A DNA stretch of 34,919 nt from Betaproteobacteria bacterium (GTDB lineage: Bacteria > Pseudomonadota > Gammaproteobacteria > Burkholderiales > Thiobacillaceae). Under the pieces are notes generated by a model, which ran no database searches, had not been told where the DNA came from, and saw nothing but the letters and a program-made list of their open reading frames with translations. How positions within the stretch are numbered: the first letter of the stretch is position 1; each line of letters begins with the position of its first letter. The position numbers and the translations under genes are program-made. Location of the stretch: the NCBI GenBank assembly GCA_020061585.1, contig JAGUXX010000178.1, forward strand, positions 1-34,919, given 5' to 3'. Of the stretch, positions 8,106-34,919 are shown in pieces.

Positions 8106-8195
8106 TTGTTTTCAATCAAACCTTGAAAGGTATTCAGTGAGATAGGTCTTTCGATGATTTGGTACGTTTGTCATCAACCAGAGAAGGAGAAAGTC

Positions 8196-15260: not shown

Positions 15261-15773
15261 TTACCAGCAATCCCCCACAGCGCCGGATCCGTTTTCGCCT
15301 TTGACGCCGGTATTGGTCAAGGTCAGCGTTCCACACAGCGCATCGGCCGCAATCGGCACGGCTTGCAGGGTATAGCTCTGCGAGAGGATTGAGTCGAAAC
15401 TGATGTTGTAGCGCGCCGTGCCTTCCTTGGGCGCCACGCAGAGTCCATCAAGTGAAACTTCCGTGCCCGCGCCAACACACGCATTCGATGCCCTCGCTGT
15501 ACCGCAATCATCGGTTTCGGTTTGATGATAACAATTACTGACCGTGTAATTACGTTCAAGGAATTGCGCCGCTTCCAGCAAAACCCCTCGAGCCGCCGCA
15601 CGATTGGCGCTAGTTACATAGTTTTGATAAGACGGATAAGCGACAGCGGCCAAAATACCGACAATCGCCACGGCTATCAGCAACTCGATCAGCGTTACGC
15701 CTGATTGAGCGCCTTGGCCGCCATATCCAAGTTTCAGGGAACGAAGCGCTTGTGACATTGCAATATCTTTCAC
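15261..15773 (-). CDS. pilE: type IV pilin-like protein PilE (minor pilin)
   Basis: A 170-residue prepilin with the cleavage site QSG|VTLIELLIAVAIVGILAAVAYPSYQ; Glu5 of the mature protein is present. The C-terminal region ends LCGTLTLTNTGVKGENGSG...GDCW, the cysteine-closed loop typical of PilE-type pilins. Other cysteine pairs may close more loops. The start is taken as GTG at 15773, which overlaps the pilY1 stop as GTGA with GGGAG eight bases upstream. TTG at 15791 and ATG at 15758 are alternatives, and none alters the mature protein. It is the last gene of the minor pilin operon. In Pseudomonas, PilE primes pilus assembly together with FimU, PilV, PilW, PilX and PilY1. Confidence 0.9.
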   Translation of the reverse strand: MKDIAMSQALRSLKLGYGGQGAQSGVTLIELLIAVAIVGILAAVAYPSYQNYVTSANRAAARGVLLEAAQFLERNYTVSNCYHQTETDDCGTARASNACVGAGTEVSLDGLCVAPKEGTARYNISFDSILSQSYTLQAVPIAADALCGTLTLTNTGVKGENGSGAVGDCW

Positions 15774-18700
15774 GGAAGAATCTCCCGCCAATTTATACGC
15801 GTATGCGCGTCACCTGACAAATCAACTCCACCAGATTCAACTTCCGGATTGTCATTAAGGTTTTTTGTTTGCGAAGCGATCCATGTATGAGTGGCATTGC
15901 TAGTCAACTCTAAGCTTCCCTTGATAAGAGAATGCCCCCCCAGCGAAGACCCGGTATCGACACCAGCGGAAATGTCGTCTTTCTCATCGACCGCACCATC
16001 GCCATTTGTATCAAACAAAGGCACAGTGGACATGGATCCATCCAAATAATTCAGCCCGATAATTCGACTCATAACGCCACCTGAACATGCGTCAGTAGAC
16101 GGCGCCATTCCATCAAATAGAATAATGTCGCTTTTCACGTTAGGGCGACCGACAAGGCGCTCTCCCGAAATGGAAAAATTGGTGTACCAGCCTTTGATAA
16201 CAGCGGGCGGCTCAAGCTCCGGAGTTGTAGTAGCCGTAATGGTCGGCGGCGACGCAGTACTGAGGTTCTGATAAACCAATACATCACGCCCTGATACTGT
16301 AACGTCCGTATCCTTGATTCCGTAGAACGACTGCGATTCATCACTCAACGCATCGTCTGAAGACAGATATTTTCCAGTTCCGAATAGAACCATCAATCCA
16401 CCATCAGGGTGACGGGTAACAACCGGCGGAGAAAGGATGGGCTGTCGATTGCTGGTTGGGCTAACCCCATCATCCGCGACAAACAATGGGGTACATGTGG
16501 AAGGCGCGGTTTCAGCGCATGTATCGGTTGAATACGCGACTTTCCAGGTACTTGGGGTGCTGCTGACACCCTCATATAAAGAACTGGTCGCATGCGGACC
16601 AACCAGGAAGCGCCACATGTTGCCCTGCAAGTCACCGGCATAGACAGTGTCGATATAACCGTCACCATCCGCATCATATGGTAACGGCGATGAAAGACCA
16701 TTGCCGCCTGAAGCAGATTTCGCGGCAACGATCTTTATGTAATCCGTTCCTTGAACCCAGACGCCTCCCGTGCCAGTGGGACCATCCAAAAAAATAATGT
16801 ACAACGCCGCATACCCTTGGGAGCTATTGTATCCATTGCCGACAATAACCGCCCAGCGGCCATCCGGATAATCCTCATAGGGCTTCAATCTGACGATCTG
16901 CCTGGGCGAACCCGTTTCCAGATCGATTGGCGGGAGGTTATAAGTCAAACCAAGGTCAGCGTCATCGTTATCTGTAAATTCCCACAAGACCAGGGATGAT
17001 GCATTGGACTCGGAGAAAACAGGGGCTTTTGCAGCCAGCGCCGTATCCCCAGGGTTGGTGACATCCAGAGCATAAAAGGCTTTCCCTCCAGAATTCAATC
17101 CACCTACCAGCACACTCCGCCAACTGGATTTGCTCGAAAGATAAGCATCACCCACCATAGGATGACCATCGACGAAATACCTGTGGTTCTTCGTGTTATT
17201 GCGATAATCCTGAGAAGTCAGCCAACTCAAATTTGAATAAACCGGGGTCGGGACATAGGCTATGACCTCGGATCCTTGCAAAGCCGCGGTACATCCAACC
17301 TGACCACTGACCACTACTGCCGGATCGCCACTATATACCGGGAGATCACAGGCATTGAAGCCATGCAGCATACCGTCATTGGCCCCGACATAGACAACCG
17401 GGAAGCGTTTGCTGAAATCGCTGCTGAAGGTACTGTAACCCGGATAATCGACGTCCGAATATCCCGTCTCAGGCTTGCCGACATACCATGGACTCGAATT
17501 AATGATATCCCCTAATTTTCCGGTAGGCCTTTGCCTGAAAGTACCTGCTGCGGTTCCTTCTTCCGTATGATCTCCCCGGAGATAGTTGAGGCGTTTTTCG
17601 CCGTCATCATCCTGGAGCAGGGTTTCATCCCGATCAAGATAATATTGCTGTGTACCTGCCGTGTCGACAGTTCCAGTCAAATTATCCCAACGGAATGGCA
17701 CTCCGCTAGTACCCGCCTTGGTCAGGATGACTCTATCTCCCGCAGCCTTGGAGTCCAGCTTCTCCGCGGCATCCCATTCCACCGTATCAGTCGACAAAAA
17801 TGTGGATACGAGCGTCCCGCTCCACTCTTCACTAGCAAATTGCGCCAGATAATAGCGACTGCCGGTATTGAGTTCGGTACTGCTGGTTGCCACGGCGGAA
17901 GCCGAACCGGTACGCTTGATGATGTCGGCGAATGCGCTGTTCAAACCTTCAACCAACTTTTCAGGCTCGGTTGCAAGCACATAATTGTCGGGCATGCCGT
18001 CACCGTCACTATCCCATTCTGATGCCACATTAGGGGTCCCGCTGTCGTCACTATCGATAAAGCCGCCGTACTTCCCCGCCAACCAAAGCATATTCCTCGG
18101 GCCATCCAGGGGATTGTTTTTGTATTCCTGGGTGTCGATCATGTACGTGGCAATGGTTTGTTTTTCTTTGAAATCAGGGCGGATATCCGTGGTGTTGGCG
18201 TAGAAAGCCAATCCAGCAATGTAGTAGGAATTTTGCTTTATCGGATCGGGGCAAGTACCCATGACTTCACCGAGGCTAGTGATGGTCTTGGCAACACACG
18301 AACCAGGGCTTGTATCACCCGGGAAATAGCCCACCGAATCATTTGTGCCCGTTACGCTGTCCGATACGCCCGTACTGGTCCAGATACCGGTGCTGGACCA
18401 GGAAATGCCATTCAACCCTTCCAGCTCTCCTACCCTGTCGGTAAGTTCCTTGACATTGATGTCCGGATCAGGATTGCTGGGCTCGCCACAATCCCCATCC
18501 GAGAATGCTGGCAGCCCGGAGGTGCCGGAACGCGCACAGGTGAAATAGGTACCGGGCAGTTTCTTGTCCAGCCAGGGGTTGGCGTCGTTGATCCCGACGA
18601 TGAAGTTTTTCTGGCACCAGTCCTGTATCGGGTCGTCCCAGACGGTGATGACCGGAAAACCGTCTTTCATGGCGGTAGTCAAGTCGGATGAATACTCGGG

Positions 18701-19744
18701 TGTATTGCCGAGATTCTTGAAATAGCGCAAGGACTCGTAATAAAGCTCCCCGGCGGGATCAGAGTCCTTATAGCCGCTGGCTCCGAATTTGTTGATGTAA
18801 TTGATGACGCCGCTATTGCTGACCGAGCTTGCGGTTGCCTCGGCGGGATCCGGGTTACTGACAAAGATGCCGGTCGTGGCGCTCCATTCGGTGTTGGCAT
18901 TGGCCGCCATACCGCTCTCGATAACGTATTTTTCAGGGCCGGTGTATTTCATTTTTGATCGAAGAACACCGCCATCCCGGCTTTTCGAATTGTCAGCCAG
19001 ATAGCTGGTCAGCGCAAACCGCATCTTGGAAGAGTTGTTCTGGATCAATCCAGTGGGCTTGTAGGTATAGGGAGAAGACGTACCATACTGCGTACAGTTG
19101 GTTTCCAGGCCTACGCTGGCATCACAAACCTTCACCCGCACATGCAAGGTTCCCTTTTGCGAGCCTCCAGAGCTGGTACCCACTTTCATGGTCTTGCCCA
19201 AACCGTGGTTGGTGAGATAGATATCCGCATCGGCATAAGGCGTCACCGTGGATGGCGCCACATTGACTCCCGCATTCAATCGCTTGACGGGAAACCAGCT
19301 TGAATTGCTGGTAGCGCTGGCCCTGACGATAACGGTTTCGGTTGTTGTGTCGACGTAGCGATCGCCCCCCGTCAGCGCCCATCGAAACTCATCGATGGCG
19401 GTCATGCCCGCCCAGTTGAGGAGGTTTCCGCTCCATTGGCCGCTACAGGTATGGTTATCCCCGGTCGCGCCGACAGGGTTGAAGCGGTCGCTGCTGTAGG
19501 TGTAACACTTGTTCGGATCGAAATACCCCAAAAAGGTGGTGCCAGCAGAGTAACTGGTCGCGCCCGTCGGACCCGAATAGGCCGCTCCCCCCATAGGACC
19601 CTCGATGGACATGTCGAACAATACATTCGGATCGACCCGGTTGTTGATAAACAAGGGGACATTCGAAATATCCAAAGAGGCGCTATCAGCAAACTGCCCG
19701 AACAAGTTCGCCATTAGAAAAGCCGACAAAAATAGATTTTTCAT
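15770..19744 (-). CDS. pilY1: PilY1-like pilus tip/biogenesis protein
   Basis: A 1324-residue exported protein with a signal peptide (about 1-22). The C-terminal half has the PilY1 beta-propeller features: FPVVYVGANDGMLHGFNA, EVIAYVPTPVYSNL, HRYFVDGHP, SVLVGGLNSGGKAFYALD and MVLFGTGKYL. Three calcium-loop-like segments are visible: DSDGDGMPD at 578, DADGDGYID at 1024 (the position that fits the PilY1 regulatory Ca2+ site) and DTNGDGAVD at 1245. I do not see a clear von Willebrand A metal site in the N-terminal half. PilY1 sits at the pilus tip and opposes retraction, and in some species it acts in surface sensing. The start has GAGGGGG just upstream. The coding region is noticeably more A/T-rich than its flanks. 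Confidence 0.93.
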   Translation of the reverse strand: MKNLFLSAFLMANLFGQFADSASLDISNVPLFINNRVDPNVLFDMSIEGPMGGAAYSGPTGATSYSAGTTFLGYFDPNKCYTYSSDRFNPVGATGDNHTCSGQWSGNLLNWAGMTAIDEFRWALTGGDRYVDTTTETVIVRASATSNSSWFPVKRLNAGVNVAPSTVTPYADADIYLTNHGLGKTMKVGTSSGGSQKGTLHVRVKVCDASVGLETNCTQYGTSSPYTYKPTGLIQNNSSKMRFALTSYLADNSKSRDGGVLRSKMKYTGPEKYVIESGMAANANTEWSATTGIFVSNPDPAEATASSVSNSGVINYINKFGASGYKDSDPAGELYYESLRYFKNLGNTPEYSSDLTTAMKDGFPVITVWDDPIQDWCQKNFIVGINDANPWLDKKLPGTYFTCARSGTSGLPAFSDGDCGEPSNPDPDINVKELTDRVGELEGLNGISWSSTGIWTSTGVSDSVTGTNDSVGYFPGDTSPGSCVAKTITSLGEVMGTCPDPIKQNSYYIAGLAFYANTTDIRPDFKEKQTIATYMIDTQEYKNNPLDGPRNMLWLAGKYGGFIDSDDSGTPNVASEWDSDGDGMPDNYVLATEPEKLVEGLNSAFADIIKRTGSASAVATSSTELNTGSRYYLAQFASEEWSGTLVSTFLSTDTVEWDAAEKLDSKAAGDRVILTKAGTSGVPFRWDNLTGTVDTAGTQQYYLDRDETLLQDDDGEKRLNYLRGDHTEEGTAAGTFRQRPTGKLGDIINSSPWYVGKPETGYSDVDYPGYSTFSSDFSKRFPVVYVGANDGMLHGFNACDLPVYSGDPAVVVSGQVGCTAALQGSEVIAYVPTPVYSNLSWLTSQDYRNNTKNHRYFVDGHPMVGDAYLSSKSSWRSVLVGGLNSGGKAFYALDVTNPGDTALAAKAPVFSESNASSLVLWEFTDNDDADLGLTYNLPPIDLETGSPRQIVRLKPYEDYPDGRWAVIVGNGYNSSQGYAALYIIFLDGPTGTGGVWVQGTDYIKIVAAKSASGGNGLSSPLPYDADGDGYIDTVYAGDLQGNMWRFLVGPHATSSLYEGVSSTPSTWKVAYSTDTCAETAPSTCTPLFVADDGVSPTSNRQPILSPPVVTRHPDGGLMVLFGTGKYLSSDDALSDESQSFYGIKDTDVTVSGRDVLVYQNLSTASPPTITATTTPELEPPAVIKGWYTNFSISGERLVGRPNVKSDIILFDGMAPSTDACSGGVMSRIIGLNYLDGSMSTVPLFDTNGDGAVDEKDDISAGVDTGSSLGGHSLIKGSLELTSNATHTWIASQTKNLNDNPEVESGGVDLSGDAHTRINWREILP

Positions 19745-19761
19745 GATTTCCCCCTCGTTTG

Positions 19762-20082
19762 TTAAGGCCTGTGCTCCAGAACTTCAATGCGGATTGCAAG
19801 ACCATTGCGGATGGTAACCTTGGCCTTATCGAAATATCCGCTATCCGCCAAGGTTCCGCATGTTATTCGATACTGATACCAGCATTCGGTTGCTTCGCCC
19901 TGACGAATCTTCAAGTTTTCCGAATCGCCGCGCAGCAAAGGGTATTTTTTATCATTTATCTCCACAAATTTTCGGGTGATATTGGAAATATGACCAATAA
20001 CTTCAGCATTGACCAGATCCGCGGCGTGCGCCGTCTGGGATATCATCAAACCAACAAATAGGGTTGACAGAAGTTGTTTCAT
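19762..20082 (-). CDS. small exported protein in the pilin operon, PilY2-like by position
   Basis: A 106-residue protein with a clear signal peptide (MKQLLSTLFVGLMISQTAHA|AD). GGAGG seven bases before the ATG fixes the start. The mature part, about 85 residues, looks all-beta (VNAEVIGHISNITRKFVEINDKKYPL, AKVTIRNGLAIRIEVLEH) with two cysteines, Cys65 and Cys73, that could form a disulfide. Pseudomonas places pilY2, a similar-sized exported protein, between pilY1 and pilE; here the gene lies before pilY1 instead, 22 bases after pilX and 17 before pilY1. I cannot show sequence homology to PilY2, so the function is open; a role in pilus assembly is inferred from the operon. Confidence 0.75.
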   Translation of the reverse strand: MKQLLSTLFVGLMISQTAHAADLVNAEVIGHISNITRKFVEINDKKYPLLRGDSENLKIRQGEATECWYQYRITCGTLADSGYFDKAKVTIRNGLAIRIEVLEHRP

Positions 20083-20104
20083 TTCATTTCCTCCAGAATT
20101 ATAT

Positions 20105-20680
20105 TCAGTCGGCTCTGTATATTTCCTGTAGCCATACCACGGCATTACCACTCACACCTTGCCCGCGGGCAGTGATTCGGTAGTAATAGACTTTACCGCC
20201 AAAATCTTTCATGAACCGCTCGAGTATATACCGTGGCTGAACGACTCCCGGTATGGCCGCGGCCCCGGTGTAATCGCCATACCCGACACTATTATACGCC
20301 CCATCATCCCAATATTCCGGGTTGCTTGTCCAAAGCGGCGTCGCATAACCCGCAAATCCGTTATTACATACGCCATTGTCATCAGCAGCAGCCGTTCCAG
20401 CACAGTCAGGCGTTCCAACAGGGAATATCGACGTAATGCCACGAGCGGAAGCGGGCACATCATTTCTGATATCTCTTTCCGCATCGCGTAGCGCCAATTC
20501 TGCCGCCTGCATGGCAATCGAGCGGTCGCGCAAATTGCCTGACATCCGTTCTTCCAGAGTGGACATGCGCGCGGAGGTGATACCGATCATAGTCAGCACA
20601 ACCAGAAAAATCAGACCGGTGATAAGCGCCGCGCCAGACTGGCGATAACATGACGAGAGTGAAGTGGGGTTTATTTTCAT
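20105..20680 (-). CDS. pilX: minor pilin assembly protein PilX
   Basis: A 191-residue PilX-type prepilin-like protein. The N terminus is SGAALITGLIFLVVLTMIG with a Gly before the hydrophobic segment, and RMSTLEERMSGNLRDRSIAMQAAELALRDAE is the strongly conserved PilX helix. This class often lacks the standard Glu5, as here. The C-terminal half is variable with aromatic residues (YYYRITARGQG before the end). It lies eight bases after pilW and belongs to the minor pilin complex that initiates pilus assembly. Confidence 0.9.
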   Translation of the reverse strand: MKINPTSLSSCYRQSGAALITGLIFLVVLTMIGITSARMSTLEERMSGNLRDRSIAMQAAELALRDAERDIRNDVPASARGITSIFPVGTPDCAGTAAADDNGVCNNGFAGYATPLWTSNPEYWDDGAYNSVGYGDYTGAAAIPGVVQPRYILERFMKDFGGKVYYYRITARGQGVSGNAVVWLQEIYRAD

Positions 20681-20688
20681 GTTCTCGC

Positions 20689-21450
20689 TCAGGGCATCAT
20701 GGTGACCCGGTTGCGCAAACTAAACGTGGCCACGAAAGCGCGAAACAGACGCCCATTGGTCCCCGTATCGAAGTCGTTGGCGGCATTGGCATCGGCGCCC
20801 AGCGCCCCATTGCAGGTCAGGTATTGCTGATCCCCAGGCGTGATGCCTCGCTCTTCCGAACGTACCAGGACGCAGGCCCGGACGCTGACCACCTGGCTCC
20901 AGTCGCCGGGCGCCGTCGTGTACTGATTTGCCGACTGGTCATCATCGGTATCGATGCCGTAAAGGAATTGCAGATCTTCGACATTGGATACCAGCGGGTC
21001 ATTGTTGCAGCGCAGATCGGTTCCGGTCAGATCGAAGGCATCCGTAACGATGGCGCCTTCCGCAACATCATCGCCACTGCAATCTTGTCCCCCGGTACCA
21101 TCATATTGCACGGTAACCGTATTGGCGGTGCCTTGAATCGCCGTACCGGCAAATGCGGCGGCGGGCAAGGTTGGTTCGAGCGGAATATTTGCATAGCCGG
21201 CCTGACGCAAGCTGCGGCCGATGGCGTCGAGTGCGTAGCGGCCTGCTTCCTGTATGCGCGCATTTTGTTCCTGCACGCGGTATGTCTGGTTGCTGCCAAC
21301 GTAGATGGTGCCGATACCGGTCAGCAAGAGCAGACCCAAGGTCATGGAGATCAGCAGTTCAAGCAGCGTCATGCCGGCTTGGCGGCGCATCGTTCTGGTC
21401 ACGCCAGACAGTGGACCGATCAGTCTCGGATTCAAGCATGCGGCGCTCAT
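20689..21450 (-). CDS. pilW: minor pilin PilW
   Basis: A 253-residue prepilin with the cleavage site QAG|MTLLELLISMTLGLLLL, mature Glu5, followed by NQTYRVQEQNARIQEAGRYALD, the helix typical of PilW. The globular part has three isolated cysteines plus a VRACVLVRSEE strand. A leader of 26 residues is long but not unusual. ATGA overlap with the pilV stop indicates coupled translation. It acts with PilV, PilX and PilE at the pilus tip. Confidence 0.92.
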   Translation of the reverse strand: MSAACLNPRLIGPLSGVTRTMRRQAGMTLLELLISMTLGLLLLTGIGTIYVGSNQTYRVQEQNARIQEAGRYALDAIGRSLRQAGYANIPLEPTLPAAAFAGTAIQGTANTVTVQYDGTGGQDCSGDDVAEGAIVTDAFDLTGTDLRCNNDPLVSNVEDLQFLYGIDTDDDQSANQYTTAPGDWSQVVSVRACVLVRSEERGITPGDQQYLTCNGALGADANAANDFDTGTNGRLFRAFVATFSLRNRVTMMP

Positions 21451-21956
21451 GGCGAAAACCTCGTAACGAAGCTCTGCGTTTCATCCACGTCCTTTTCGGT
21501 CCAGGACACCGTAATGTCGAAAACCCGGTTGGAATTGGCCACTATCGTTACGCAACCCGCGGGGCCACTGACACAACGAACCGTACCCGTGCCGCCAGGC
21601 AACAAACGCGCATTATTGGTAAGCCATTGAAAATGATCGGTAGTCGCCATCTGGGCTGATGTGCAACCCGCGAGAATACAAGCCGGATCGACCGGCAGCA
21701 CGGCCGTCAGATCGCTGTAATTCCCCGCACCTATGCCGTCCAGATTCGCGCGCATCCGGTCAGCCATGTCATAGGCTTGTTGAGAAGCTATCGATCGGTA
21801 GTAGGCGACCTGGTTGTTGTTCAGGCTGACCACCTGCAACGCCGCCAAGCCCAGCAGGCCGATAGACAGCACGACGATGGCGACCAGGATTTCCAGCAAT
21901 GTGAAACCACTTTGCCGAGACGGCGGAGATTGAAGTTTGAAAGACATCATGGACAT
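21447..21956 (-). CDS. pilV: minor pilin PilV
   Basis: A 169-residue prepilin with the cleavage site QSG|FTLLEILVAIVVLSIGLLGLA, mature Glu5, and then LQVVSLNNNQVAYYRSIASQQAYDMADRMRANL, the PilV signature helix. Two starts are plausible: ATG at 21956 with GAGGGGG ten bases upstream, or ATG at 21950, which overlaps the fimT stop as ATGA. The C-terminal domain has cysteine pairs (ACILAGC, RCVSGPAGC) suited to disulfides. It overlaps its neighbours at both ends. Confidence 0.93.
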   Translation of the reverse strand: MSMMSFKLQSPPSRQSGFTLLEILVAIVVLSIGLLGLAALQVVSLNNNQVAYYRSIASQQAYDMADRMRANLDGIGAGNYSDLTAVLPVDPACILAGCTSAQMATTDHFQWLTNNARLLPGGTGTVRCVSGPAGCVTIVANSNRVFDITVSWTEKDVDETQSFVTRFSP

Positions 21957-22555
21957 GTCAAATTAACCCCCTCGACATCTTCAATGGAGTCGCCATTTCC
22001 GTCAGTTGTGCGCCTTACCCTGCCCTGAAACGAGACCGTGACACCCCGTGCCTCGACTGCTCCACGGGCATCACAAAGCATGAGGGTCCCACTGGCACCC
22101 GTAATAAAACCGGTGTTCTGGAATCGAACTCGTTCTAGGTTGCTGGAGCGTAAGGTATTACCACCCGAAAGCGCCGAATACACCTGCAGAATCTCATCAC
22201 CATCAATGGTGTCTAAAACGCCATCGCCATCATTGTCTACAAACACCAACCAGCCGGTTTCCCAGGTCTTGCTGGACGCACAGGACTCCGCATCGCTCGT
22301 GCTGCAGACTGTGACGGTTATCCCTCGCTTCACGGCCTCGCTTTTGGCCAAGGTCAACGCCAAAACCAGCTCATTGGCCTGCGTGGCCAGGCGACTATTC
22401 ATCAGGAAATCCCGGAAACTGGGGATAGCCACCGTCATCATGATGCCGGCGATGGCCAGCGTGACCAGCAGTTCGATCATCGTGAAACCACGACTGATCG
22501 GTCGTTTGACGCGGCGATCCGAAGCCTCCGGAACTGGCAAGTTAGAGTCTTTCAT
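21947..22555 (-). CDS. fimT: GspH/FimT-family minor pilin (FimU/FimT)
   Basis: A 202-residue prepilin, first gene of the operon. After a 23-residue leader the cleavage site is SRG|FTMIELLVTLAIAGIMMTVAIPSFRDFL with Glu5 present. The rest is the GspH/FimT domain: NELVLALTLAKSEAVKRGITVTVC, WETGWLVFVDNDGDGVLD, then VRFQNTGF and GVTVSFQGRV. The NDGDGVLD loop may bind calcium. FimT/FimU begins the minor pilin set and caps the pseudopilus-like priming complex. I see no strong ribosome binding site before this ATG. The promoter should lie in the 208-base divergent space shared with the Fur-family gene. Confidence 0.9.
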   Translation of the reverse strand: MKDSNLPVPEASDRRVKRPISRGFTMIELLVTLAIAGIMMTVAIPSFRDFLMNSRLATQANELVLALTLAKSEAVKRGITVTVCSTSDAESCASSKTWETGWLVFVDNDGDGVLDTIDGDEILQVYSALSGGNTLRSSNLERVRFQNTGFITGASGTLMLCDARGAVEARGVTVSFQGRVRRTTDGNGDSIEDVEGVNLTCP

Positions 22556-22704
22556 GCGTACAGCATAGCGTCACACCAAGCCCGCGGATGCCGCCCCATG
22601 ACGGACGGCATGTTTACTGGAATGAGCGGAACAATTGGCGATATTGCGCGCGACACCGCCTTCCGCAACCGAGATCCGGCGCGCATTTGGCGCACATACA
22701 TAGT

Positions 22705-22733
22705 TAGACGCTGGGTATTCGCGCACCTACAAT
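22705..22733 (+). promoter_or_regulatory. possible vegetative promoter of the Fur-family gene
   Basis: TAGACG (22705-22710) and TACAAT (22728-22733) are 17 bases apart and match the sigma-70 hexamers at four and five of six positions. The predicted start lies about 24 bases before the ATG at 22764. No Fur box was recognised by eye. Confidence 0.4.
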
Positions 22734-22763
22734 AACCGCAATACTTTTGCCTATCACATTTTC

Positions 22764-23195
22764 ATGTCGACTTCACAACCCATCCCTCTGCCGCGTGGCG
22801 TGCTTTCCGAACGACTGCGGGCGCACGGCATCGCCCCCACGCATCAGCGCATCGAAATCGCCAATGCGCTGTTTTCGCGCTGCGAGCACCAGTCCGCCGA
22901 TCAGATTCTGGCCATCGTCAACGCGCAGCACAGCGAAACTTCCAAGGCCACGGTTTACAACACCTTGCGGCTGTTCCTGGCAAAAGGACTGGTGCGCGAA
23001 GTCATCGTCGATCCGAGCAAGATTTTCTATGACCCGAACACCGCGCCGCATCATCACTTCTACAACCTGGTCAGCGGCGAGTTGACCGACATCCCGGCCG
23101 ATGCCATGCAGATCGCCGGCATGCCGACCTTGCCGGACGGCATGCTGGCGGAGAGCATCGATGTCATCGTGCGGATACGCCCGCGGCACGCGTAG
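22764..23195 (+). CDS. Fur-family regulator, Irr-like
   Basis: A 143-residue Fur-superfamily repressor. The winged helix is at about residues 10-85 (GIAPTHQRIEIANALF, SKATVYNTLRLFLAKGLV). The dimerisation half contains APHHHFYNLVSGELTDIPADAM with His96-His98, and ends LPDGMLAESIDVIVRIRP. This C-terminal pattern and the lack of the CxxC zinc pairs fit the Irr (iron response regulator, heme/peroxide-linked) subgroup better than Fur, Zur or canonical PerR. Irr senses heme status in alphaproteobacteria; the ligand here is inference. It diverges from the minor pilin operon, with 208 bases shared, so it could affect both. No neighbouring gene clearly names its regulon. Confidence 0.8.
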   Translation: MSTSQPIPLPRGVLSERLRAHGIAPTHQRIEIANALFSRCEHQSADQILAIVNAQHSETSKATVYNTLRLFLAKGLVREVIVDPSKIFYDPNTAPHHHFYNLVSGELTDIPADAMQIAGMPTLPDGMLAESIDVIVRIRPRHA

Positions 23196-23246
23196 CGGAT
23201 TCTCATTTTCGCCGGCAAACCGTCAAACCAATCGAATGCGCATCGG

Positions 23247-23313
23247 TCATTCCGGCGCAAGCCGGAACCCAGTGAAATCAACTGACTGGATCCCGGCCTG
23301 CGCCGGGGTGACG
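23247..23313. repeat. REP-like inverted repeat, relative of 2954-3031
   Basis: The left arm (23247-23273) contains TCATTCCGGCGCAAGCCGGAA and the right arm (23285-23313) reads CTGGATCCCGGCCTGCGCCGGGGTGACG, split by about 11 bases. They are approximate reverse complements with CCAGT/ACTGG inner edges. It is the same family as the element between ubiV and ubiT. It lies between the Fur-family gene and the TRAP binding protein gene. Confidence 0.7.
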
Positions 23314-23381
23314 TTCCGCGCAGCGTCAGCCTGATCGCCCAAAACGGTCTATCCCACTCCCCCAACTGTTCAAGGCCATCC

Positions 23382-24464
23382 ATGCAAAGACGAACCTTTC
23401 TGACTTCCGCCGGCGCCGGTCTCGGCCTTGCCGCCACCGCTTTGGCGCCGAAGGCGTTTGCCGATGGCCCGAGCATCAAATGGCATCTGGCTTCGAGCTT
23501 TCCCAAGAGTCTGGATACCATCTACGGCGCGGCGGAAGTGCTGGCCGATCGACTCGGCAAGATCACCGGCGGCAAGTTTCAGTTGCGGGTGCATGCCGGC
23601 GGCGAACTGGTGCCGGGCTTGCAGGTGCTCGACGCGGTGCAGAACGGCACGGTCGAATGCGGCCATTCCGCGAGTTACTACTATGTCGGCAAGAACATGG
23701 CGTTCGCCTTCGATTGCGCCGTGCCGTTCGGGCTGACGGCGCGTCAGCAGAATGCCTGGATGTATGCCGGCGGCGGCTTGCAATTGATGCGCGAATTGTT
23801 CCAGCAATACAACATCGTGCAGTTTCCCGGCGGCAACACCGGCGTGCAGATGGGCGGCTGGTTCCGCAAGGAGATCAAATCGCTGGCGGATCTGAAGGGT
23901 CTGAAAATGCGCATTCCCGGCATCGGCGGGCAGATCATGGCGAAGCTGGGCGTGGTGCCGCAGACCTTGGCCGGCGGCGATATCTATCCGTCGCTGGAGC
24001 GCGGCGCGATCGACGCGGCGGAATGGGTCGGCCCGTATGACGACGAGAAACTCGGCTTCCACAAGATCGCCAAGAACTATTACTACCCGGGTTGGTGGGA
24101 AGGCGGTCCGCAACTGTCGTTCTACGTCAACCTCAAGAAATGGCGGGAACTGCCGGAAAACTATCAGGCCGCTTTCGAGACCGCCTGCGTCGAGGCCAAT
24201 GTCAGAATGCTGGCCGAGTATGATGCCAAGAATCCGCAAGCGATAATGCGGCTGATCAAGCAAGGCGCGAAACTGCGCGCCTTCCCGAAAGACATCATGG
24301 AAGCCGCGAAACAGGCGGCGTTCACGCTGTATGACGCGGAGGCGAAGAAGAATCCGACCTTCGCGAAAATCTACAAGGACTGGAAGCGCTTCCGCGACCT
24401 GGAAAACCAGTGGTTCAAGGTCGCCGAAGCCGCCTATGCCAACTTTCTTTACTACTCGAAGTAA
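23382..24464 (+). CDS. TRAP transporter solute-binding protein, TakP-like (2-oxoacid type)
   Basis: A 360-residue DctP-family periplasmic binding protein. The N terminus is a Tat-type signal (RRTFL at residues 3-7, cleavage near AFA|DG). The body closely follows Rhodobacter TakP, a Na+/2-oxoacid binding protein: ASSFPKSLDTIYGAAEVL, GGELVPGLQVLDAV, FPGGNTGVQMGGWFRKEI, GGDIYPSLERGAIDAAEWVGPYDDEK and YYYPGWWEGGP. Ligand specificity is inferred. No DctQ or DctM membrane subunit is in the window, so the permease must be elsewhere, or the protein serves another partner. AAGG precedes the ATG. The cytochrome c gene starts 14 bases downstream. Confidence 0.9.
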   Translation: MQRRTFLTSAGAGLGLAATALAPKAFADGPSIKWHLASSFPKSLDTIYGAAEVLADRLGKITGGKFQLRVHAGGELVPGLQVLDAVQNGTVECGHSASYYYVGKNMAFAFDCAVPFGLTARQQNAWMYAGGGLQLMRELFQQYNIVQFPGGNTGVQMGGWFRKEIKSLADLKGLKMRIPGIGGQIMAKLGVVPQTLAGGDIYPSLERGAIDAAEWVGPYDDEKLGFHKIAKNYYYPGWWEGGPQLSFYVNLKKWRELPENYQAAFETACVEANVRMLAEYDAKNPQAIMRLIKQGAKLRAFPKDIMEAAKQAAFTLYDAEAKKNPTFAKIYKDWKRFRDLENQWFKVAEAAYANFLYYSK

Positions 24465-24478
24465 TCTAGGAGCCTGAC

Positions 24479-24841
24479 ATGCGAGTTGCCGTTGTTGCAC
24501 TGATTGCCATGACCGCGCTGACGGCCTGTGGTGACAAAGCCGAAGTCGCCCCCGCCGCCGCGCCGCAAACCACCGCGCCGGAGCCGATCGAGACGCCGGC
24601 GGTAAACCCGGGGAAACTGAAATATCTCGCGGTTTGCCAAGGCTGTCATGGCCGCGACGGCCAAGGCCAGGGTTCCTTCGCGAAACTGGCCGGCCGGCCG
24701 GCAGAGGAGCTGGTCAAGCTGTTGCGGGACTATCGCGCGGGCACGCCGGTCGGCCCGCAAAGCGCCACGATGATGCCGTTCGCGAAAGCCTTGACCGACG
24801 CGGAAATCGATTCCATCGCCGATTACCTCGCCGGTCTGTAG
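24479..24841 (+). CDS. lipoprotein class I cytochrome c
   Basis: A 120-residue small c-type cytochrome. The signal peptide ends in lipobox LTAC with Cys17, so it is probably membrane-tethered. A Pro/Ala-rich linker (21-43) leads to the cytochrome domain with heme motif CQGCH at 53-57. MMPFA near residue 98 supplies the likely methionine axial ligand, and DAEIDSIADYLAGL is the usual last helix. AGGAG precedes the ATG. It follows the TRAP binding protein by 14 bases and is probably cotranscribed. The redox partner is not evident. A short ATTGCC/GGCAAT hairpin at 24861-24876 may end the transcript. Confidence 0.9.
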   Translation: MRVAVVALIAMTALTACGDKAEVAPAAAPQTTAPEPIETPAVNPGKLKYLAVCQGCHGRDGQGQGSFAKLAGRPAEELVKLLRDYRAGTPVGPQSATMMPFAKALTDAEIDSIADYLAGL

Positions 24842-27945: not shown

Positions 27946-28794
27946 ATGAAAATTCCGCCCAGACTCCAACCGTTGCTCGAAGACGGCCTGATCGACGACG
28001 TCACCCGACAATTGATGAGCGGCAAGGAAGCGATGGTGTTCGTCGTCCGCTGCGGCGACGATGTGCGTTGCGCCAAGGTCTACAAGGAAGCCAACAAACG
28101 CAGTTTCCGCCAGAGCGTCGACTACACCGAAAACCGCAAGGTCAAGAACAGCCGCCAGGCGCGCGCCATGGCCAAGGGCACCCGCTATGGCCGGGAAGCG
28201 CAGGAAGAAGCCTGGCAAAACGCCGAAGTCGATGCCTTGTATCGTCTGGCCCGCGCCGGCGTGCGGGTGCCGACACCCTACAACTTCCATGCCGGCGTGC
28301 TGTTGATGGAACTGGTCACCGATGCCGACGGCAATGCCGCGCCGCGCCTGAACGATGTCGAATTCACGCCGGAGCAGGCGCGCACCCATTTTCACGCGCT
28401 GATTCGGCAAGTGGTGCTGATGCTGTGCGCCGGGGTGATCCATGGCGATCTGTCGGAATTCAACATCCTGATCAGCCACGATGGTCCGGTGATCATCGAC
28501 CTGCCGCAGGCCGTCGACGCCGCCGGCAACAACCACGCCAAAGCCATGCTGGAACGCGATGTCGCCAACCTGGCCGACTACTTCGGTCGCTACGCCCCGG
28601 AACTGGCGACCACCCAATACGGCAAGGAAATCTGGTCCTTGTACGAACACGGCGAGCTGACGCCGGACACGCCGCTGAGCGGACGTTTCCGGCAGAGCGG
28701 CAAACCGGTGGACCTGGACAGCGTGATGCGGGAAATCGAGGATGTGCGCCTGGATGAGGAGGCGCGCGTGCGGCGGATGCGGGAAGCGGAGTGA
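27946..28794 (+). CDS. RIO1-family serine protein kinase
   Basis: A 282-residue bacterial RIO kinase. The phosphate-binding loop is SGKEAMVFVV at 25-34 and the ATP lysine is Lys44 (CAKVYKEANKRSF). The catalytic loop HGDLSEFN at 166-173 carries Asp168, and the metal-binding IIDLPQ follows at 183-188, replacing the usual DFG with the RIO-type IDxPQ. RIO kinases are best known in archaeal and eukaryotic ribosome assembly; bacterial members are less studied and their substrates are unknown. No strong Shine-Dalgarno sequence precedes the ATG. It ends eight bases before the convergent gspF stop, and the two stops sit inside a small TGAGC/GCTCA hairpin (28792-28804). Confidence 0.9.
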   Translation: MKIPPRLQPLLEDGLIDDVTRQLMSGKEAMVFVVRCGDDVRCAKVYKEANKRSFRQSVDYTENRKVKNSRQARAMAKGTRYGREAQEEAWQNAEVDALYRLARAGVRVPTPYNFHAGVLLMELVTDADGNAAPRLNDVEFTPEQARTHFHALIRQVVLMLCAGVIHGDLSEFNILISHDGPVIIDLPQAVDAAGNNHAKAMLERDVANLADYFGRYAPELATTQYGKEIWSLYEHGELTPDTPLSGRFRQSGKPVDLDSVMREIEDVRLDEEARVRRMREAE

Positions 28795-28801
28795 GCCGCG
28801 C

Positions 28802-30016
28802 TCAACGCACCATCTGATTCATCTCGAAGATCGGCATCAGAATCGCCAGCACGATCAGCAGCACCACGCCGCCCATGACCAGAATCAGCAACGGTTCCAG
28901 CAGCGCGGTCATCGACAGCACGCGGGTATCCAGTTCCTGCGTCTGCTGATTGGCGATGCGTTCGAGCATTTCCGGCAGGCGGCCGCTTTTCTCGCCGCTG
29001 GCGACCAGATGCGTCATCACCGGCGGGAACATGCCGGTCGAGGCAATCGCCCGGCTCATGCTGCCGCCCTCGCGCACCCGTTTGACGATTTCGTCGACCG
29101 CCGCGCGCATCGGCAGGTTGCCGACCACCCCGGCGGCGGCATGCAACGCCGACAGCAACGGTACGCCGCTGCCGGACAGGATGGCCAGGGTGCTGGTCAG
29201 CCGCGCGGTGTTGACGTTGCGGGTCAGGCGACCGATCAGCGGCAAACGCAACAGCAACAAATGCCAGCGATGCCGAAACGCCGCGCCGCGCAGCGCCTGG
29301 CGAAACAGCAACGCCGCGCCGATCAGAACCGCCAGCAGATACAGGCCGAAACTGCGCAGCAGCCCGGATACCGCGATCAAGATCTGGGTCAGCAGCGGCA
29401 AGGTCTGGTGCGAGTTCTCGAATACCGCCACCACCTGCGGCACCACATAGGTCAGCAAACCGGCCACCACCAGCACCGCGACAGTGGTCACCAGCGCCGG
29501 ATAGATGAACGCCAGACTGACCCGGCGATGCAGGCTGTTGCGCGCCTCGATGTAATCCGCCAGGCGTTCCAGCACGCCGCCCAGCTTGCCGGAGTCCTCG
29601 CCGCTGGCGACGATGGTGCGGTACAACTCGGAGAACACCGCCGGATAGCGCGCCATCGCCCGCGACAGGGAAGCGCCGCCCAGCACCTCGCCGCGCACGC
29701 CGGCCAGCACGCGCTGGGTAGCGGCGGATTCGGATTGTTCAATGCAGGCCGACAGGGTTTCTTCCATGGTCAGCCCGGCGGCCAACAGCGTCGCCATCTG
29801 GCGCGTGGCCAGGGCCAGGTCGGCGGCGGACAGCCCGCGTTCGCGGAACCGCCGTTTGCTCTGGCGCTGCACCGCTTCCAGCAACACCTCGACCCGGGTC
29901 GGGATCAAGCCGCGCTCACGCAGTTGCGCGCGCGCCTGGCGCGGCGTATCGGCCTCCAGCACGCCGCTTTCGCGGCGACCGGCGGCGTTTATGGCTTCAA
30001 AGCGGAATCCGGCCAT
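28802..30016 (-). CDS. gspF: type II secretion / type IV pilus inner-membrane protein GspF
   Basis: A 404-residue polytopic platform protein. It starts MAGFRFEAINAAGRRESGVLEAD, the standard GspF N terminus, then two T2SF domains each with the QxATLLAAGLTMEE- or SGSGVPLLSALH-like segment. Three membrane helices are visible: about 165-190 (VAVLVVAGLLTYVVPQV), about 212-235, and a C-terminal one at about 375-398 ending MPIFEMNQMVR. It connects the GspE ATPase to pseudopilus assembly in the inner membrane. MSHA-type MshG is a close alternative identity. It is the last gene of this minus-strand unit visible here, 27 bases after gspE; no gspG follows. Confidence 0.9.
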   Translation of the reverse strand: MAGFRFEAINAAGRRESGVLEADTPRQARAQLRERGLIPTRVEVLLEAVQRQSKRRFRERGLSAADLALATRQMATLLAAGLTMEETLSACIEQSESAATQRVLAGVRGEVLGGASLSRAMARYPAVFSELYRTIVASGEDSGKLGGVLERLADYIEARNSLHRRVSLAFIYPALVTTVAVLVVAGLLTYVVPQVVAVFENSHQTLPLLTQILIAVSGLLRSFGLYLLAVLIGAALLFRQALRGAAFRHRWHLLLLRLPLIGRLTRNVNTARLTSTLAILSGSGVPLLSALHAAAGVVGNLPMRAAVDEIVKRVREGGSMSRAIASTGMFPPVMTHLVASGEKSGRLPEMLERIANQQTQELDTRVLSMTALLEPLLILVMGGVVLLIVLAILMPIFEMNQMVR

Positions 30017-30043: not shown

Positions 30044-31534
30044 TCACGCTCTGGCCACCCGCATCACTTCCTCCAGCGTGGTTTCGCCCGCCGCGACCCA
30101 GCGCAGGCCGTCGTCATACAGACTCAACCAGCCGTTGTTCGACGCCTCGGCGCGCAACACCGCCTCGCTGGCGCCATCGTGGATCTGCCGGCGCGCGGCG
30201 TCGTTGAGGCTGAACAGTTCGTAGACGCCGGTCCGACCGCGATAGCCGGTGTGATTGCACTCCGGGCAACCGACGGCATGCATCACCCGATCGACATTGT
30301 ATCCGGCCAGCGCCGCCTGTTCGGCGCCATCCAGAGTCGATGGCTGTTTGCAGGCCGGACACAGGCGGCGGATCAGGCGCTGGCCGAGCACGCCGATCAT
30401 GCTGGTGGCCAGCAGATAGGGTTCGACGCCCATGTCCGACAAACGGGTGACCGCGCCGAGCGCGTCATTGGTGTGCAGCGTGGCCAGCACCAGATGCCCG
30501 GTGAGCGAGGCCTGCACGGCGATCTGCGCGGTTTCCAGGTCGCGGATCTCGCCGATCATCACCACGTCCGGGTCCTGCCGCAGGATGGCGCGCAAGGCGC
30601 GCGCGAAAGTCAGCTCGATGCGCGGATTGACGTGGGTCTGGCTGACCTGATCGAGGTCGTACTCGATCGGGTCTTCGACGGTCATGATGTTCAGCCGAGT
30701 GGCGTCCAGCCGCGACAGCGCCGCGTACAACGTCGTGGTCTTGCCCGAACCGGTCGGCCCGGTGACCAGGATGATGCCGTGCGGCGCGCGGATCAGGCTG
30801 TCCAGCCCGCGCAGCACCGAAGGATTCATGCCCAAAGCCTCCAGTTCCAGCCGGCCATGCTGCTTGTCGAGCAGACGCAACACGACGCGTTCGCCGTGCC
30901 CGGTGGGCAACGTGGAAACCCGCACATCCACTGGCCGACCGGCGACGCGCAGGGTGATGCGGCCATCCTGCGGCAAGCGTTTTTCGGCGATGTCGAGACT
31001 GGCCATCACCTTGATCCGCGACACCAGCGCCGCGTGCAAGGCGCGCGGCGGCGTCATCACGTCGCGCAGCATGCCGTCGACGCGATAGCGGATCACCGAG
31101 CGATTTTCGTAGGCTTCCAGATGAATGTCGGAGGCGCCCTCGCGCAAGCCTTGCGCCAACAGCGCGTTGATCAAACGGATGATCGGCGCGTCGTCCTCCG
31201 ATTCGAGCAGATCGCCCACCGCCGGGATGTCCTGCGCCAGCGCTGTGAGGTCGATCTCCTGTTCCAGGTCGTCCATGATCCGCGCGGCATGCGCATCCTC
31301 GCGGGCATAGGCCTGGGCCAGGAGGGCGTCGAACGCCTCGCCGCTGAGCAACACCGGCAGCAAGCGCGTCGCCAGCACCCGGCGCGCCTCGGACAAGGCC
31401 GCGATGCCGGCATCCTCGCGCACCCAGACTTCGATCGCGTCGCCCACCTGACGCGCCGCCACCACGCCATGCGCGCGCGCGGCGTGATAGGGGATGCGGC
31501 GAACGATGGCGGGGTCGATGGACGGCAAGGACAT
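30044..31534 (-). CDS. gspE: type II secretion ATPase GspE (or MSHA-type MshE)
   Basis: A 496-residue secretion/assembly ATPase. A short N1E-like region (residues of about 1-110) is followed by ASDIHLEAYENRSVIRYRVDG, a Walker A GPTGSGKTTT at 259-268, the Asp box VEDPIEY, a Walker B-type motif VVMIGEIRD, the His box GHLVLATLHTND and a zinc site with CPACKQ and CPECNHTG (four cysteines). All catalytic elements are intact. It powers (pseudo)pilus assembly with GspF. The sequence resembles GspE most, yet MshE is close and the upstream gene is MshL-like. It starts eight bases after the MshM-GspD frame. Confidence 0.92.
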   Translation of the reverse strand: MSLPSIDPAIVRRIPYHAARAHGVVAARQVGDAIEVWVREDAGIAALSEARRVLATRLLPVLLSGEAFDALLAQAYAREDAHAARIMDDLEQEIDLTALAQDIPAVGDLLESEDDAPIIRLINALLAQGLREGASDIHLEAYENRSVIRYRVDGMLRDVMTPPRALHAALVSRIKVMASLDIAEKRLPQDGRITLRVAGRPVDVRVSTLPTGHGERVVLRLLDKQHGRLELEALGMNPSVLRGLDSLIRAPHGIILVTGPTGSGKTTTLYAALSRLDATRLNIMTVEDPIEYDLDQVSQTHVNPRIELTFARALRAILRQDPDVVMIGEIRDLETAQIAVQASLTGHLVLATLHTNDALGAVTRLSDMGVEPYLLATSMIGVLGQRLIRRLCPACKQPSTLDGAEQAALAGYNVDRVMHAVGCPECNHTGYRGRTGVYELFSLNDAARRQIHDGASEAVLRAEASNNGWLSLYDDGLRWVAAGETTLEEVMRVARA

Positions 31535-31542
31535 CCGGGCGC

Positions 31543-33345
31543 TTATTCCGGCCAGATCGAAAAATCGTTGCTCGACCGTTCCGGCGCGGTTTTCTTGACC
31601 GGCGCCGGCGGCGCCGTCCGAACCGGCGGTTTGCCGGCCAGCACGCCATCCAGCTTGAGATCCGGCAGCGCCCCGGGCGAGTTGTCCGGCAACAGCAACC
31701 GCCGGGTTACCGGGAAGGCGCCATAGACATTGCGGATGTAGTCGTAACGGGTATCGGTCAAACCCGCCAAGGCTTCCGGCGTGCGCACCACCACCGGACG
31801 CAGGAACACCATCAGATTGGTCTTGGTGCGCTTGCGCGTTTCGCTGCGAAACAGACCGCCGATCAACGGCAGATCACCCAGACCGGGGACCTTGTCGATG
31901 CCGTTCTGCACGTCGTCCTGGATCAGGCCGCCGAGCACGATGGCGTCGCCGTCGCCGACCAGCACGGTGGTCTCGATCGAGCGTTTGTTGGTGATGATGC
32001 CGGCGGCGTTGCTGGCATCCTGCACGTTGGACACTTCCTGGACGATCTGCAGCTTGATGGTGCCGCCTTCGGAAACCTGCGGCTTGACCTTCAACGTCAG
32101 GCCGACATCCTTGCGCTCGATGGTCTGGAACGGGCTCACCGATGAGCTGCTGCCGGTCGACGCCGTCTGCGCATACTGGCCGGTGATGAACGGCACGTTC
32201 TGGCCGATGACGATCTTGGCTTCCTCGTTGTCCAGAGTCAGCAGATTCGGCGTGGACAGGATGTTGGCATCGCCATCCGATTCCAGCAGTCGCGCCAACG
32301 CGGTCAGGCCGGTGACCTTTTCGCCGTTCAAGGTGACCGTCTGGCCCAGTGCCAGATTCAGACCCGCACCCGGCAAGGACGAAACCGTCCCGGTCGCGAT
32401 GGCGCTGGACAACGCCAGCAGGTTGTTGCCGCCGCTGCCGAAATTGGTGCCGCCCAGCAAAGCATAGCTGTCCTGGTTCTGCAGCAGCGGCGTCTGCCAT
32501 TGAATCCCCAGTTCCGCCGCCTTGGCGCTGCTCACTTCGACGATCAACGCCTCGACGAACACTTGCGCGCGTTGCGCATCCAGCTTGTCGATCACCACCC
32601 GCAAGCTGTTGTACAAATGATCCGGAGCGTTGATTACCAGCGAATTGCTGGCGGCATCGGCCAGTATCGTCACCCCGCCGCTGGTGGCGGTGCTGGTCGC
32701 GGCGGCGCCGGCCTGGGTGGCGCGATGCATCAGATAGACCGGGGTTTCCCGCGCGCTCAACGGCTGGATGCGTTCATGGAAGACGATGCGGCCGCGGATC
32801 TGGCGCACCGAGGGTTCGGCCAGCCGGGTATCCAGTTCGGGCTGACCGAACAGCACGATCTGCAACAGCTTGCGCTTTTCGGTTTCCAGATTGGTGATCA
32901 GCCGCAGCGCTTCCAAGGTTTCCAGCGGCATCGCCTGGGCTTCGTCGATCAGCGCCACCGCCGGCTTGCCGGCCCGCGCCAGTTCCAGCAGGCGCAGTTC
33001 CAGCGCCTTGGTCAGCCCATGCGCGAGGCCGCGTTTGACGCTGCCGCCGGCCTCGCCGGCCAGTTCGCCGAGCAGTGCCTGATTCAGCGCCGCCGGGGTC
33101 AGATGCGGGTTGGGCACATAGGCGGCGGCCCAGCCCTGGCTTTCCAGATGGTTGAGCAGGTAACGGCACAGCAGGGTCTTGCCGGAGCCGACTTCGCCGA
33201 CGATCTTGATCAGCCCTTCGCCGGATTCCAGCGCCACCAGCAAGGTGTTCAACGCCGACTGGGCGCCGACGCCGGGAAAAAAATAGCCGGTATCGGGAGT
33301 CAGACCGAACGGAAATTCCTTGAGGCCGAAGTGGGCGAGGTACAC
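31543..33345 (-). CDS. fused reading frame: truncated MshM/ExeA-type AAA ATPase joined to truncated GspD secretin
   Basis: A 600-residue frame built from two unrelated parts. Residues 1 to about 210 are an ExeA/MshM-type ATPase: MYLAHFGLKEFPFGLTPD, Walker A GEVGSGKT at 50-57, Walker B ALIDEA at 131-136, VLFGQPEL and FHERIQPLSARET. Its lid and C-terminal domains are missing. From about 222 (SGGVTILADAASNSLVI) it is a GspD secretin, N3 region plus barrel, with VEALIVEVSSAKAAELG, ERKDVGLTLKVKPQ and VPGLGDLPLIGGLF. The signal peptide and domains N0, N1 and N2 are missing. As read, a cytoplasmic ATPase runs into an outer-membrane secretin with no export signal. An in-frame deletion or assembly join near 32680-32720 is likely. 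The start is GTG with no clear ribosome binding site. Confidence 0.85.
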   Translation of the reverse strand: MYLAHFGLKEFPFGLTPDTGYFFPGVGAQSALNTLLVALESGEGLIKIVGEVGSGKTLLCRYLLNHLESQGWAAAYVPNPHLTPAALNQALLGELAGEAGGSVKRGLAHGLTKALELRLLELARAGKPAVALIDEAQAMPLETLEALRLITNLETEKRKLLQIVLFGQPELDTRLAEPSVRQIRGRIVFHERIQPLSARETPVYLMHRATQAGAAATSTATSGGVTILADAASNSLVINAPDHLYNSLRVVIDKLDAQRAQVFVEALIVEVSSAKAAELGIQWQTPLLQNQDSYALLGGTNFGSGGNNLLALSSAIATGTVSSLPGAGLNLALGQTVTLNGEKVTGLTALARLLESDGDANILSTPNLLTLDNEEAKIVIGQNVPFITGQYAQTASTGSSSSVSPFQTIERKDVGLTLKVKPQVSEGGTIKLQIVQEVSNVQDASNAAGIITNKRSIETTVLVGDGDAIVLGGLIQDDVQNGIDKVPGLGDLPLIGGLFRSETRKRTKTNLMVFLRPVVVRTPEALAGLTDTRYDYIRNVYGAFPVTRRLLLPDNSPGALPDLKLDGVLAGKPPVRTAPPAPVKKTAPERSSNDFSIWPE

Positions 33346-33355
33346 GGCGGCCGCG

Positions 33356-34919
33356 TTAGTTGCCGGCGGGCGACGGCGTTTCGCGCAACCGCTCGCTGGC
33401 GTCGCGCACGCCCTGCATCCAGTCGGATTGCTGGCGGATCAGCGTCGGTTTGAGCAGAATCACCAGTTCCTGCTTTTGCCGTACCTTGCTGGTGTTCTTG
33501 AACAACGCGCCCAGCAGCGGAATATCGCCCAGGCCCGGCACGCCGCTGTCGGTGTCGCGCGATTCGCGCTTCATCAGGCCGCCGATGGCGGCGATCTCGC
33601 CATCTTTCAGGCGCACGATGCTGTCGGTTTCCGAGACGCTGCTCTTCGCCAGCGGCAACTTGTAGACGCCCTGCTGGCTGCCCAGGTCGATGACCTTTTC
33701 ATCGGTCACCACCAGGCTGACCGACGGATGGACATGCAGAATGATGTTGTCGGCGTCGTCGATCTGCGGCGTCACGTCGAGCGCGATGCCGGAGAAGAAC
33801 GGCTGGGTGGAGACGCTGGTCGACGGCGTGGTGGTGGTGCCGGTGGTGCTCTGGGTGCTGGAGATTTCGGTGACGAAGAACTCGTCGGTGCCGACCTTGA
33901 GCACCGCCTTCTGGTTGTTGATGGCGGCGATGCGCGGACTGGACAGCACCTGCACCTGGCCCTGGGTCTCCAGGAAGCGCACCAGCGCGGCGAAGCTGTC
34001 GGTCTGGAAAGCCAGGCCGACAAGCGTGCTGTTCGCCGCCTGATTGAGCACGCCGAAGTCGGCGGTGGAATTCAGGAACGGGAAGTTGCTTGATGGAAAC
34101 GTCGCCTGGCCGTAATTGCTGCTCAAGCCGAACGGCAAGCCATTGCGCGTGCCGATCGCCGACCAGTTGATGCCGGTCTGGGCATTCTCGTTCAACGTCA
34201 CTTCGATGATCTTGGCTTCGATCATCACCTGCCGCTCGATCTGTAGACGCGCCGCCTTCAGATACTCGGCCACCTGACGCTGTTCCGCCGGCAGCGCGCG
34301 CACCATCAGCATGCCGGTATGCGGGCTGACGCCGACCCCGCGCCCGCCCGGACAGGCGGCGGTCGCTGTAGCGTCAAGGGACGCCGAGCAGCCGATCAGC
34401 ATGCCGACCGAAGCCCGCAATTCGCCCCAGAAGTCGCTCGCCACCGAGGTCGTCACGCGGCTGCTGTCGACTTGTTCGCCGCGACCGTTGCCGGTGTTGC
34501 CGCCGTCGCCGCCGGTTGACGCGGATTTGGACGTGGAATCGGCGATCGAGCCGGAAATCACCCGCACATCGGATTTGCCCTGGCGCGTCGACGAGGGATA
34601 GGCGACGGAATAGAAGCGGGTCTGGGCGGTCAGCGGCTGGACATGAATGCGGTTGCCGTCGATCCGGTATTCGTAGCCGTACAGATCGCGCAACGCCCGC
34701 ATCGCCTCGGGCACGGTAACGTCCTTCAGATCGACCGTGATGCCGCCCGCCACTTCCGGATGCAACAGCATGCTGTAGCGGGTGCCGGAAGCGATGCCGA
34801 GGAACACCTGTTGCGCCGGCGCGGCGTTTACCGCCAAGTCGAAGCGCGCCTCGGCCGGCGGCGCGGCGACTTCCGGCAATTCCAGGCGGGTACTCGGTTC
34901 CAGCGCCGCCGCCACGGCC
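33356..34919 (-). CDS. mshL: MSHA biogenesis secretin MshL (5' end beyond right edge)
   Basis: At least 519 residues of a PilQ/MshL-type secretin; the start and signal peptide lie beyond the window, and the GTG at 34915 is probably not the true start. N-terminal visible parts are STN-like: NAAPAQQVFLGIASGTRYSML and VTVPEAMRALRDLYGYEYRIDG. After a Ser/Gly-rich stretch (STGGDGGNTGNGRG) comes a region with Cys pairs (GCSASLDATATAACPGG). The secretin core follows: MIEAKIIEVTLNENAQTGINWS, VQVLSSPRIAAINNQKAVLKVG, LDVTPQIDDADNIILHVHPS and VPGLGDIPLLGALF. It would form the outer-membrane channel for an MSHA-type pilus. The ATPase/secretin fusion starts 10 bases after its stop, so they are one operon. 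Confidence 0.9.
   Translation of the reverse strand, partial: AVAAALEPSTRLELPEVAAPPAEARFDLAVNAAPAQQVFLGIASGTRYSMLLHPEVAGGITVDLKDVTVPEAMRALRDLYGYEYRIDGNRIHVQPLTAQTRFYSVAYPSSTRQGKSDVRVISGSIADSTSKSASTGGDGGNTGNGRGEQVDSSRVTTSVASDFWGELRASVGMLIGCSASLDATATAACPGGRGVGVSPHTGMLMVRALPAEQRQVAEYLKAARLQIERQVMIEAKIIEVTLNENAQTGINWSAIGTRNGLPFGLSSNYGQATFPSSNFPFLNSTADFGVLNQAANSTLVGLAFQTDSFAALVRFLETQGQVQVLSSPRIAAINNQKAVLKVGTDEFFVTEISSTQSTTGTTTTPSTSVSTQPFFSGIALDVTPQIDDADNIILHVHPSVSLVVTDEKVIDLGSQQGVYKLPLAKSSVSETDSIVRLKDGEIAAIGGLMKRESRDTDSGVPGLGDIPLLGALFKNTSKVRQKQELVILLKPTLIRQQSDWMQGVRDASERLRETPSPAGN

Follow-up and report, generated by a model that had tools for sequence, protein, structure and literature searches.

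Can a cytoplasmic ATPase and an outer membrane secretin share one polypeptide, or have pieces of two genes been joined by mistake? The question is raised by an open frame that runs for 600 codons on the minus strand, from a GTG start at 33345 down to 31543, with no interruption in the given sequence. It lies on contig C33, whose full 34,919 bases are the window. Pfam finds an AAA_22 domain at residues 41-175 (E 1.8e-25) and a Secretin domain (PF00263) at residues 353-521 (E 7e-51). The MshM-like ATPase model TIGR03015 matches residues 1-222 with a score below its cut-off, and the GspD model TIGR02517 aligns residues 210-530 with positions 280-600 only of its 600. A sequence-only reading had described one frame carrying an ATPase and a GspD, and the frame itself and these matches bear that description out. 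We believe the frame is no new architecture. Because mshM and gspD are whole and apart in all relatives examined, it is most probably the front of an mshM gene stuck to the back of an unrelated gspD by an assembly mistake.

The two halves and their join

The mshM-derived part covers residues 1 to about 215 (32701..33345, minus strand) and shares 78-89% identity with the mshM genes of same-genus genomes. It corresponds to the first 645 or so bases of mshM, the front three quarters of the protein, and it holds the AAA core with both Walker A (GEVGSGKT) and Walker B (ALIDEAQ). Alignment with relatives shows that the cut removes the last 65-70 or so of about 280 residues, including the conserved GxPRLLN segment. 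The C-terminal lid that carries this segment is present in the relatives' MshM and missing from the composite frame. The earlier reading had the ATPase cut after the sensor/arginine region; it was right that the protein is truncated, but the sensor-2-like GxPRLLN segment is gone as well.

The gspD-derived part (31543..32699, minus strand) holds the end of N3, the secretin barrel and the C-terminus, and it is what TIGR02517 matches. Beginning at about residue 217, it shares 74-79% identity with the nearest gspD genes of the genus, so the names given earlier to both halves agree with their nearest relatives. The barrel domain is present. No N0 domain is matched, and the GspD model begins too late to cover N1 and N2. 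The same profiles find N0 and three Secretin_N stretches in a relative's full GspD. The claim that the frame carries GspD from N3 to the barrel is correct for the barrel and incorrect for N3 as a whole, which Secretin_N matches only from profile position 25 and below the cut-off, in agreement with the alignment of relatives. The frame also appears to have no signal peptide; its N-terminus is that of MshM (VYLAHFGLKEFPFGL) and aligns with mshM from residue 1.

None of the 78 positions that are invariant in 19 mshM relatives is changed in the front half, and none of the 72 that are invariant in 88 gspD relatives is changed in the back half, so neither resembles a decayed pseudogene. Two long-standing pseudogenes ought to have decayed; the intact positions fit an artefact, or else an event that took place very recently.

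One could argue instead that the fusion is genuine and functional, with an MshM-like ATPase domain serving as the N-terminal module of a secretin. There is a single open frame, the join is in frame and both halves are conserved. A chance join would fall in frame one time in three, a point against an assembly artefact. Such a protein would have to work without a signal peptide, without N0-N2 or a complete N3, and without the ATPase lid, and it would be unique among 117 genomes. We know of no export route that lets cytoplasmic and outer membrane parts share one chain. We give this idea next to no credence. If the fusion is real and expressed, its secretin part could not be exported, and the organism would have given up the functions of GspD and MshM or found an unknown cytoplasmic role for the product, a combination we consider very improbable.

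The join can be placed within a short zone (32676..32725, minus strand) using nucleotide alignments to the relatives' mshM and gspD. Similarity to mshM stops at about base 32700; gspD-like sequence takes over between about 32725 and 32676. The best breakpoint is at about 32700, within GGCCGGCGCCGCCGCGACC, and it falls in the Ala/Gly/Ser-rich loop of GspD N3. In GC content the richest 40 bases at the junction (87.5%) are essentially at the top of the whole window, at about the 99.97th percentile of its 40-mers. The right end of the contig is GC-rich too, with 20 bases at 90% (99.4th percentile). GC-rich stretches lose coverage in short-read data. A long exact word common to both genes of the relatives, read on the same strand, was sought to account for the mis-join, but only words of 10-12 bases were found. 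These fall short of the k-mers that assemblers usually employ, so the data do not demonstrate a plain collision of k-mers, and a chimeric read or a gap-closing step must be supposed.

Gene order around the frame and in relatives

The genes on either side of the frame look ordinary. On the msh side mshL (33356..34919, minus strand, TIGR02519 over the cut-off) has lost its 5' end, export signal included, at the end of the contig; mshL frames in relatives are 580-620 aa long. The sequence-only reading reasoned that a fusion, if real and expressed, would leave MshL as the only exportable secretin here. For the genome that cannot stand, since the contig end truncates MshL as well and two further secretins exist, PilQ on C242 and one more on C129. 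On the gsp side gspE (30044..31534, minus strand, TIGR02533 over the cut-off, 87-94% identical to close relatives) and gspF (28802..30016, minus strand, T2SSF, 86-93% identical to relatives) are both intact. The RIO-kinase-like gene beside gspF (27946-28794, plus strand) is found in the same position in the related genome G004 and is 93% identical there. This conserved placement is evidence that the contig is sound on its gsp side.

Two other features of the window can be recorded here. Positions 15558-24500 on the minus strand carry a type IV pilus minor-pilin cluster, whose members include a GspH-like pilin (21947-22555) and a large PilY1-like protein (15770-19744). At 6273-10220, about 18 kb from gspF, lies a gene pair, one GldK/formylglycine-enzyme-like and the other CFI-box/choice-of-anchor U. 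The same GldK-like/choice-of-anchor U pair in G017 (L121:10144-14001) is divergent and adjoins gspC.

Relatives keep the msh and gsp genes apart. In all 24 mshM loci (19 distinct) mshM is complete, with its C-terminus present, and mshN comes next; gspD directly follows mshM in none of them. Of the gspD loci, 86 extend 1 kb or more upstream, a count that includes a few loci twice, and every one has N0-N2 sequence there. Genomes of the same genus have the order mshL-mshM-mshN-gshA, followed by gshB-like and ApbE-like genes (these last two identified by eye), and they have gspC-gspD-gspE-gspF as a separate locus. Where one genome has both mshM and gspD (G002, G004, G014, G017 and others), the two are on different contigs. 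The joined parts are thus separate loci in relatives, as expected of a chimera.

In two species a pair of small genes lies between gspD and gspE (L121:6179-6779 and L119:7869-8670), 94% identical between them. By eye the second gene is like a BrnA-type antitoxin, so this is perhaps a toxin-antitoxin pair within a type II secretion operon.

Three cohorts of loci contained no fused relative. The frame itself was sought in the 116 other genomes of the family and not found; a match running through both halves occurs only in the window's own. Matches in the other genomes start near residue 156-220 or stop near 215-233, and the few that start early are weak gapped extensions, as shown for G014. It had been suggested that a simple deletion or recombination removed the end of mshM and the start of gspD, and that related genomes be searched for the order mshL-mshM-(mshN)-gspD-gspE that this needs. 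No relative has that order. A simple deletion between neighbouring operons was therefore dropped as the lead reading, msh and gsp being apart in all relatives. The other suggestion, a false join of reads during assembly, gains support from the two-locus order and from the gaps described below.

The missing pieces in the genome itself

The window's genome has 4,585,829 bases in 336 contigs, with completeness of 93.5% and contamination of 0.6%. The number of contigs and the records of its relatives suggest that it was assembled from a metagenome. We sought the front of gspD, the end of mshM, mshN and gspC in it using the relatives' proteins, and none was found. The same proteins readily detect each other among the relatives.

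It is important to realize where the contigs stop. The gshA gene is at C64:17307-18617 and points away from the contig end at 18752. Relatives have mshN before gshA, but here the contig ends 135 bases upstream of gshA, inside a dispersed repeat. A search of these 135 bases for the tail of mshN found none. The repeat is intergenic, about 100 bases long with inner palindromes (ATGCCTCGGCAT), and the copy at G000 C64:18618-18752 (L135) has 31 matches in the genome. Near-identical copies are on five other contigs (C312, C227, C156, C59 and C14) and further copies on C120, C262 and C242. Several are at or near contig ends: C14 starts inside a copy and C156 ends 11 bases past one. The copy on C59 lies just upstream of a gspG gene. 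On the other side the edge of C306 carries mshI, and the contig breaks off in the next gene, about 1.7 kb in relatives' coordinates from the mshL end of C33. The ends of C64 and C306 are thus assembly gaps where the msh locus would be expected to continue.

It seems that the msh locus is spread across three contigs or more and that the pieces it lacks measure about 1.2-1.8 kb. The missing gspC and gspD front make a piece of similar size. The gsp-side gap could not be located, since the gene that precedes gspC in G004 was not found when it was sought in this genome as a landmark. The shortest contig of the genome that we encountered is 4,035 bases. If short contigs were left out of the bin, all of the missing pieces would be explained at once. 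An architecture that is absent from the rest of the family and comes from an assembly gapped at the missing msh pieces gives no support to the earlier word unprecedented.

The missing genes could have been truly deleted instead. A real and very recent rearrangement would have cut both genes short and joined them in frame, leaving a product inactive in both roles, either by a deletion after the gsp operon had moved beside mshN in this lineage or by a translocation. A single deletion between two neighbouring, like-oriented operons would account for all the lost sequence at once, from the end of mshM and mshN to gspC and the front of gspD. No mshN was seen in the 135 bases before gshA, so the mshN-gshA order is unproven in this genome. 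Vibrio cholerae still makes MSHA pili when mshM or mshN is lost (PMC4624765). However, gsp stands beside msh in no relative, and the gshA and mshI contigs both stop at gaps that adjoin the missing genes. The conserved positions are also undecayed, and gspE and gspF are still 86-94% identical to relatives. We consider such a rearrangement unlikely. It would be only modestly interesting in any case, because deleting mshM or mshN leaves V. cholerae MSHA pilus production unreduced (PMC4624765).

There is also a variant of the chimera, in which the join mixes two closely related strains or species that occur together, the msh half coming from one and the gsp half from the other. In its favour, the two halves derive from different loci, though each is typical of the same genus. 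The contamination estimate is low, and no duplicate of mshL, gshA or mshI was found in the genome. We think this variant unlikely; its probability is part of that of the chimera as a whole. The genome has pseudopilin gspG genes, a point in favour of the chimera. Three of them (C38:15023, C262:14442 and C59:394) are over the family cut-off, and being separate they suggest that the genome has more than one system like type II secretion.

A probable assembly chimera and its comparison with known systems

We believe, with a probability of about 85%, that the composite frame is an assembly chimera made at a GC-rich gap. Coming from its right end, the contig would carry mshL and the first 645 or so bases of mshM. 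At the GC-rich stretch the assembly would have passed into the GC-rich N3-loop stretch of gspD, and from there the contig would have run on through the true gspE-gspF order. The true continuation of mshM would be its last 200 or so bases and mshN, up to the dispersed repeat before gshA. The true start of the other locus would be gspC and the front 900 or so bases of gspD. The mis-join itself, and the loss of these pieces in binning as contigs too short to be kept, are what we infer. The organism most likely has an ordinary full-length MshM and an ordinary full-length GspD. Metagenome assemblies are well known to contain chimeric contigs; one benchmark of short-read assembly reports them as common, at 2.6 and 22 per genome for two assemblers (PMC11261854).

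If the frame were taken at face value, databases would list a new ATPase-secretin architecture, and readers of the genome would conclude that it has no type II secretin. The lesson is more likely a practical one, that a long clean open frame over a junction is no proof of a gene. Synteny in relatives, together with the location of the missing halves, can reveal that two loci have been joined.

The V. cholerae msh genes listed in the literature include mshI, mshJ, mshL, mshM (ExeA-like), mshN (TPR), mshE and mshG (PMC4624765), and in models of type IV filament systems mshM and mshL are mandatory MSH genes while gspD is able to stand alone (PMC6668835). The frame is like MshM, the ExeA-type AAA ATPase of the MSHA pilus operon, in its first 215 residues, its Walker motifs and the mshL directly upstream. 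It differs in lacking the last 65-70 or so residues with GxPRLLN and an mshN after it. It is like GspD, the type II secretion secretin, from about residue 217 to residue 600, with the N3 end, barrel and C-terminus in place and gspE and gspF next. It differs in that the signal peptide, the domains N0, N1 and N2 and the beginning of N3 are absent, and in lacking gspC upstream, a gene missing from the window and the genome alike. The frame also resembles a chimeric contig of a draft metagenome assembly, with separate loci joined, a GC extreme at the join and gaps at the matching places.
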